From a virus: a DNA stretch of 35,852 nt. Numbering within the stretch: position 1 is the stretch's first letter; every line of letters begins with the position of its first letter. Shown here piece after piece: positions 31,319-32,198 of the stretch. The stretch is taken from the IMG/VR virus record IMGVR_UViG_3300032288_002261, positions 1 through 35,852 of that record; one strand, given 5' to 3'. The notes beneath the pieces are model-generated. The model was not told where the DNA came from, made no database searches, and saw only the letters and a program-made list of their open reading frames with translations. Both the position numbers and the translations under genes were made by a program.

Positions 31319-31399
31319 ATGGAACCATCCCACCAACAAATAGCTGCTTTGTGGCTGGCCCTGGCAATCTTGGGGTTAGTTCTGATTTTAACAAATTAA
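31319..31399 (+). CDS. Micro-membrane protein (26 aa)
   Basis: An ATG at 31319 opens a 26-codon frame encoding a short polar start (MEPSHQQIAA) and one hydrophobic span (LWLALAILGLVLIL). GGAT lies a few bases upstream. It resembles other very short phage membrane proteins. The evidence is the composition and the next similar frame. Confidence 0.45.
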   Translation: MEPSHQQIAALWLALAILGLVLILTN

Positions 31400-31436
31400 T
31401 TTATCAACTATTTATTTATCCGTCATAAGGCGCATT

Positions 31437-31508
31437 ATGGATAAGGATTTTGCTGTATTTATCGGAACCATTTTGATTTTCCTGGCAATGGTGGCGGGTG
31501 GATATTGA
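31437..31508 (+). CDS. Micro-membrane protein (23 aa)
   Basis: AAGGCG precedes the ATG at 31437. The 23-residue product is almost wholly one membrane span (a FAVFIGTILIFLAMVAGGY segment). It ends shortly before the promoter-like element of the structured RNA candidate. Confidence 0.45.
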   Translation: MDKDFAVFIGTILIFLAMVAGGY

Positions 31509-31551
31509 CGCCATCCGTCATCCGGGCGCGAGGCCCAATTGGAAAAAGGCA

Positions 31552-31581
31552 TTGACAATTCAAAAAGAAAGGGGTTAGGAT
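31552..31581 (+). promoter_or_regulatory. Candidate sigma70 promoter for the structured RNA
   Basis: A perfect TTGACA -35 (31552-31557), an 18-base spacer and TAGGAT -10 (31576-31581, four of six consensus bases) predict a start near 31588. That position is a G and is exactly the first base of the 14-bp outer stem of the candidate RNA. Confidence 0.5.
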
Positions 31582-31587
31582 TCGCCT

Positions 31588-31900
31588 GTCCGAGAAAAAG
31601 ATCGGATCGTGCCGGGAAGCACGTCGAAGGTACAAGAACCCTTAACAGGGGTAGGCAACCGTCCTTCGCGGCTTCCCACCGCCGATCCCCTGTTAAGGGT
31701 TTTTCTTTTTCTCAGACACAGTACAACGGGGGCATAACCCACCCCTCGCAACGGTTTGACGACCAATGCGGATAAACGCAAAGCACCGGCCAGGAATGGC
31801 TGCCCTTTCGCAAGATGGATAGGGAACGGTGGTGCAGCAGAGCAACGCTGCATTGAGCGCGATAAACGAGAGTCAGATGTACCCCCGCTTATAACGGGTG
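31588..31900 (+). ncRNA. Candidate large structured non-coding RNA
   Basis: This stretch of about 310 bases has no convincing gene and is full of helices. Outer stem A pairs 31588-31601 with 31704-31717 (13 of 14 pairs). Stem B is perfect over 15 bp (31637-31651 with 31687-31701). A side hairpin has CGTGC (31608-31612) / GCACG (31619-31623), and a GCGG/CCGC hairpin lies in the loop of B. The 3' half has a long-range helix CGGGGG (31727-31732) / CCCCCG (31882-31887). It encloses TGCG-GATAAA-CGCA (31767-31780), a GGAA-tetraloop stem CGGCCA/TGGCTG (31787-31802), CACCG/CGGTG (31784-31788 with 31827-31831) and TGCAGC/GCTGCA (31833-31838 with 31847-31852). A promoter-like element ends seven bases upstream. 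The exact 3' end is unknown. Confidence 0.65.
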
Positions 31901-31955
31901 AGGTTTAATTGTGCCGACGCAGTTATGATTAATTAATTTATCAGGAGATATGAAA

Positions 31956-32198
31956 ATGAATTACTGCAAAGATTGTATTCACCATCAAGTAAAAGAAAAG
32001 CACCCTCGATTGGGGCAATGTACCCGTCGCATTCGTTATCACCCTGTTGATGGGTCCATGTACTTTTATGATGCCTGGGACGAACGTATGGCCCTCGGAA
32101 CTTGTGGCCCAGATGGGATTCACTTCGTACCAATCCCGCACGTTTCACATTCAGACATTGCTGCCGAGCAGATGCAAGCGAAGCAGGCAGAAGCATGA
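31956..32198 (+). CDS. Small Cys-containing phage protein (80 aa)
   Basis: I start at the ATG at 31956, seven bases after AGGAGA. The ATG at 31950 is too close to it. The product begins MNYCKDCIHH with further cysteines in GQCTRR and LGTCGPDG, a likely zinc site of four cysteines. Such CKDC-type proteins recur in phages. The stop overlaps the next start in ATGA. Function is unknown. Confidence 0.7.
   Translation: MNYCKDCIHHQVKEKHPRLGQCTRRIRYHPVDGSMYFYDAWDERMALGTCGPDGIHFVPIPHVSHSDIAAEQMQAKQAEA

Follow-up and report, generated by a model that had tools for sequence, protein, structure and literature searches.

A stretch of about 310 bases (31588-31900) in the viral IMG/VR record IMGVR_UViG_3300032288_002261, of which all 35,852 nucleotides (nt) were analysed (hereafter the window), consists of two RNA modules, a leader and a core, preceded by a single sigma-70-type promoter. 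The core (31726 to approximately 31906, about 180 nt) is a real, previously uncatalogued structured RNA family that is absent from Rfam 15. The leader (31588 to approximately 31712, about 125 nt) is a second new element and is portable between phages. An initial annotation had taken the region, in which it saw no convincing gene, for a single large structured RNA, undescribed and transcribed from a promoter of its own. The RNA is real, has no Rfam match and contains covarying stems, but it is made of two modules with separate distributions rather than one fold.

The proposed promoter was confirmed. It was the sole sigma-70-like site within 31400-32000 and scored above 100 of 100 shuffles of its flank. 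Over 30 distinct leaders, the mean promoter score was 5.12, compared with 2.06 for shuffled sequences (shuffle maximum 2.51). The open reading frames (ORFs) that overlap the region had no homologues at the other family loci compared; the stems showed compensatory changes, and no reading frame was conserved instead. A tRNA and tmRNA search of the region found none. None of the 4227 Rfam 15 families matched the window at the gathering score, and there was no match up to E = 10 on 31380-31980 or up to E = 0.5 on six related loci. A literature search found no paper on this RNA. The 313 nt folded better than 100 of 100 shuffles (z -3.7), and so did the reverse strand (z -4.5). Because the opposite strand also beat its shuffles, folding energy alone leaves the strand undecided. 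By part, the leader (first 130 nt) had a z of -5.7 and the core alone was ordinary (z -0.9). The support for the core is covariation, not folding energy.

In INPHARED, blastn of the region returned one relative, MW202825, an annotated phage from a Florida spring that shares part of the region, and two more relatives were obtained via relatives of RecE. In the alignment of these sequences, conservation starts near 31726, past the long stem. Blastn with other cores and a leader from locus L096 found no additional annotated phage. The pattern of core motif A matched at least 119 IMG/VR contigs with diverse flanks. A second, ATAAACGA-type motif, which was outside the search pattern, followed downstream in 115 of the 117 motif-A loci with enough sequence. 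An exact 16-mer of the 15-bp stem matched only unrelated hairpins in IMG/VR. The window carries motif A, its P1, P2 and P2a pair throughout (row 1 of A2; the window also contributed to model R1), and the second GAUAAACGA (31861-31872) and the 3' GGGU (31896-31899) are present.

Across 26 diverse sequences, 99.0% of the P1, P2 and P2a cells were paired, with 67 two-sided changes. For this 5' domain, none of 500 shuffles was comparable, and slid controls were at most 62% paired. RNAalifold, unaided, gave the same P1/P2/P2a structure. Two-sided changes occurred in six of the seven P2/P2a pairs, and columns 5, 6 and 7 of P1 covaried with columns 19, 18 and 17, respectively. A long-range CGGGGG/CCCCCG helix had been proposed for the region; its G's pair and covary locally in P1, and it was discarded. 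Because the search pattern had nearly fixed P1, this helix was given a separate predictive test by altered scans, one forbidding G6 with C18 and the other forbidding G5 with C19. A6-U18 was found in all four family-like matches of the former and A5-U19 in all five of the latter, with assignment to the family made by visual inspection of the P2/GGATAAA context; the other matches of both scans look like chance. P1 passed this test. The closing helix of P3 also covaried (0/2000 shuffles); at some loci its register is shifted. GGGT terminates all 36 representatives, at an end point that was chosen by looking for such a G-run. A pseudoknot between the 3' GGGU and the ACCC in the P1 loop may form; we only infer it, because neither side ever varies.

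By comparison of related sequences, the leader is predicted to fold into a terminator-shaped pseudoknot, whose kissing helix covaries as well. This helix, K, links the 5' hairpin loop to a segment inside the long hairpin (in the window, 31614-31620 with 31671-31677). Over 16 leaders, the mean own pairing of K was 7.4 vs 5.0 when halves were swapped, and none of 1000 swaps was as high. The K halves are hypervariable yet always self-complementary. In L283 and L289, which are 96% identical, most of the differences ahead of the core fall in the two K halves and are compensatory. For helix X, the own-partner mean of 16 group-B leaders was 9.1 vs 5.5 swapped (maximum 6.9). The perfect 15-bp stem seen in the initial annotation (31637-31651/31687-31701) is leader helix P2, with the same topology in groups A and B, and U5-U9 follow it in related leaders. 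P0 equivalents with altered stems and A-rich loops were found in group-B leaders (L124, L216, L225, L237-L261); group-A leaders are without the A-rich hairpin. The terminator shape was seen by eye; a terminator scan reports none because it is limited to loops of 3-8. The window has the promoter, kissing helix K, long P2 hairpin and U-tract that define the leader family.

An outer stem (31588-31601/31704-31717) had also been proposed. Its 13-of-14 complementarity is present in the sequence but was not seen in related leaders. Such a stem would need the P0 strands and the U-tract and would compete with a hairpin type that is conserved in related leaders, and it was rejected. Further hairpins are visible by direct reading of 31588-31900. 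A small set of K sequences is shared by leaders that otherwise differ, namely GTGAGAGC (L013, L105), GTGGTGC (L102, L107, L164) and GTGACGC (L097, L103). The features of both modules are collected in the table.

Table. Features of the promoter, leader and core in the window.
Feature	Position	Strand	Remarks
Sigma-70-type promoter TTGACA-18-TAGGAT	31552-31581	+	Predicted start near 31588
Leader hairpin P0, TCCGA/TCGGA	31589-31606	+	A-rich loop GAAAAAGA; read directly
Leader hairpin P0b, CGTGC/GCACG	31608-31623	+	Loop region holds K half GGGAAGC (31614-31620)
Leader helix X	31626-31667	+	GAAGG 31626-31630 with CCTTC 31663-31667
Leader helix P2	31637-31701	+	Perfect 15 bp, 31637-31651/31687-31701; encloses K half GCTTCCC (31671-31677)
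U-rich tract after leader P2	31700-31712	+	Terminator-shaped; about 14 bases before core
Core motif A, ACGGGGnnAUrACCCAnCCCUC	31726-31747	+	P1 hairpin 31728-31732/31742-31746; conserved loop 31733-31741
Core helix P2	31747-31770	+	31747-31750/31767-31770; inner P2a 31753-31755/31762-31764; 98.3% of cells paired
First GAUAAAC	31771-31777	+	Single-stranded, nearly invariant
Core domain P3	31777-31861	+	Variable length; closing helix CGC 31777-31779/GCG 31859-31861
Second GAUAAACGAGAG	31861-31872	+	ATAAACGA-type motif in 115/117 motif-A loci
3' hairpin CCCG/CGGG	31884-31904	+	31884-31887/31895-31898; invariant GGGU 31896-31899, plus GAGGU

One leader pattern matched 33 IMG/VR contigs. The core described here lay behind the leader in 7 of 30 fetched loci according to R1, and also in L124, L216 and L225. 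In five other loci (L246, L251, L256, L258, L263), Betaproteobacteria-1 RNA (RF02932) scored above its cut-off behind the leader at a similar short distance. RF02932 thus occupies the same slot behind the same leader type in other phage contigs, but it differs from the core: the window lies below the 49.4-bit covariance-model cut-off (no match with E ≤ 10 in 31380-31980), and the two have no evident common motif. Other sequences without an obvious ORF stood behind the leader in L095/L096 (after 1065), L237, L242/L244, L243, L245, L249 and L261, and L095/L096 and L245 have the common block GTCAGGGCGCGTTAGCTTCAT. These remaining sequences had no Rfam match in the loci scanned and no folding-energy signal; they may be putative further RNA families. 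Each module also occurs without the other. Cores without a leader but with a promoter directly upstream were found in L116, L135 and L139, and other leaderless cores had no clear promoter. The phage association of RF02932 behind this leader may be previously unnoted. In bacteria, RF02932 is present in few genomes, and the copies inspected were without such a leader. One genome, G360, has three RF02932-like copies (L274, L278, L279), two of them above the cut-off, at separate sites and leaderless.

From these data, we consider it possible, though rather doubtful as a whole, that phages have a modular RNA slot in which interchangeable structured RNAs of unrelated kinds (the core, RF02932 and others) are expressed from one conserved leader, comprising promoter and pseudoknot, and K sets specificity. 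If true, this slot would parallel, at the RNA level, the exchangeable cassettes of anti-defence genes, and the effects of phage structured RNAs on the host could be compared through interchangeable modules in one position.

The core is not cellular in the genomes searched. A core pattern scan of 84,980 bacterial genomes in GTDB gave zero matches, and R1 gave a single weak match in 399 genomes of the same phylum (23.9 bits, E 6e-4), which was taken as chance. The leader pattern had one match in GTDB genomes, a Novosphingobium stretch that also looks like chance. The core was single-copy in each of 11 whole records. Neither the core, as scored with R1, nor the leader pattern was found in 10 records (28-36 kb) with a terminase approximately 77-82% identical to that of the window. 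In L096, RecE is 78% identical to that of the window and the leader is present, and the core was not found. As the RNA is apparently missing from close phage relatives, the core is judged to be an accessory, phage-borne element with a patchy distribution, and this status speaks against an essential replication role. The RF02932 association hints only weakly at betaproteobacterial hosts.

The neighbourhood of the RNA varies. A same-strand operon encoding a zinc-ribbon-like protein, RecE and RecT lies downstream in the window and its closest relatives. In many contigs (clusters 1 and 0), the core is directly upstream of, and divergent from, the terminase genes, and in others it is near RecE, RecT and RusA. 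Downstream of the core in L109, L114, L120, L139 and L143, the nearest gene with good support runs on the opposite strand. A consistent same-strand downstream gene, as a cis-acting riboswitch or leader would have, was not found for the core, and none of the loci compared revealed a downstream gene common to all groups. Family scans of the neighbours found no RNA-binding partner.

Because the next gene is on the opposite strand in at least five loci, a stand-alone trans-acting RNA is the better reading; the lack of pattern matches in the bacterial genomes scanned, the patchy distribution and the opposite-strand neighbours together favour, on sequence grounds, an accessory RNA of this kind. We propose an accessory two-module phage RNA gene whose core acts in trans early in infection and binds a conserved partner, with partial read-through of the leader, and we regard our confidence in this proposal as evenly balanced. 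Polymerase would start at the promoter and first make the leader, which would fold into the kissing pseudoknot around the long hairpin ending in the U-tract. Some transcripts would end there and others would read through and add the core, ending near the 31884-31898 hairpin, so that the leader probably sets the amount of core by partial termination. The early timing is a guess. The core would bind its partner, most likely a host macromolecule (also a guess), via the P1 loop AUrACCCA, the two GAUAAAC linkers and the 3' GGGU. A conserved, probably host, partner was chosen because the invariant unpaired segments persist in otherwise diverged phages. The hypervariable K leaves room for a possible RNA-based specificity between phages.

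Several observations weigh against this proposal. If the core is the gene product, it is surprising that a strong terminator shape separates it from the promoter. The next gene is on the same strand in the window (31950-32198) and in L097, L099, L124 and L164, where a cis role is possible. In L247 (8322 onward), the leader is directly followed by an apparent protein ORF beginning with ATG (MPERIDVNFYPFHIGDYL...), which may resemble DUF1376, with its start codon just past the U-tract and no core; this arrangement fits a cis-regulatory leader. The neighbouring genes do not point directly to a target, and R1 could overlook strongly diverged cores in the relatives scored as lacking.

The same-strand operon of the window and its closest relatives, the terminator shape of the leader and the L247 ORF would all suit a cis element, in which leader and core form the 5' untranslated region of an early operon and control its transcription as an attenuator or by RNA antitermination like that of HK022 put. 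We consider this unlikely but worth keeping in mind, given the opposite-strand genes in five loci and the lack of a downstream gene common across groups. Control of superinfection or incompatibility seems less probable still. Here, a terminated leader would kiss a leader of identical K sequence while an incoming phage is transcribing it, and would halt that transcription; the immunity RNA of satellite phage P4 is the model for such control. The variability and constant self-complementarity of K, the compensating changes in L283/L289 and the recurrence of K sequences are consistent with it, but ordinary structural drift of the pseudoknot gives this pattern as well, this leader is missing from many core-bearing phages, and the core is left unexplained.

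A role as replication or packaging RNA, such as a ColE1 RNA II-like primer or a phi29-type pRNA, might be suggested by the terminase genes and by RecE, RecT and RusA near the core; we regard it as very improbable, since R1 found no core in the whole records of phages with closely related terminases, its orientation and neighbours vary, and there was no Rfam match to known packaging RNAs. Equally small is the chance that two unrelated RNA genes are neighbours, a terminated small RNA and a core made by chance read-through. The terminator-like U-tract that ends the leader and the occurrence of each module alone agree with this, but diverse contigs repeatedly carry the leader a short distance before the core (groups A and B, L087/L283/L289), and no promoter is visible between the modules in the window. 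A ribozyme, HDV-like (hepatitis delta virus) or other, was considered for the pseudoknot topology and set aside, with no Rfam support.

The RNAs of phages have received far less study than their proteins. Phages and mobile elements carry the large structured RNAs GOLLD and ROOL (PMC12286853). Like the core, both are phage-carried structured RNAs with no function assigned and are known from lake metagenomes, but the window RNA is much smaller and has no Rfam match. We know of no counterpart of the portable leader for GOLLD or ROOL. The P4 immunity leader, lambda nut boxB and HK022 put resemble the leader as structured RNAs at a transcription start before a terminator-shaped hairpin, and the A-rich loop of P0 is reminiscent of lambda boxB. 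In contrast to these elements, a structured RNA and not a protein gene usually stands behind the leader, and group-A leaders have no A-rich hairpin. With the core family, the few large noncoding RNAs listed for phages gain a common, strongly conserved member, and the shared leader ties it to RF02932, an Rfam RNA without an assigned function. The placement of one leader before different RNAs hints at an interchangeable viral RNA toolkit.

Downstream of the RNA, small zinc-ribbon-like proteins rich in cysteine are encoded in the window (31950-32198), L097, L099, L108, L124 and L164; that of the window had no Pfam or PHROG match. L292, L294 and L324 have a recurring block, ATGGAGTCATAACCCAATGCTCACGCC..., with small variations, which is partly motif-A-like and lies outside the core family.
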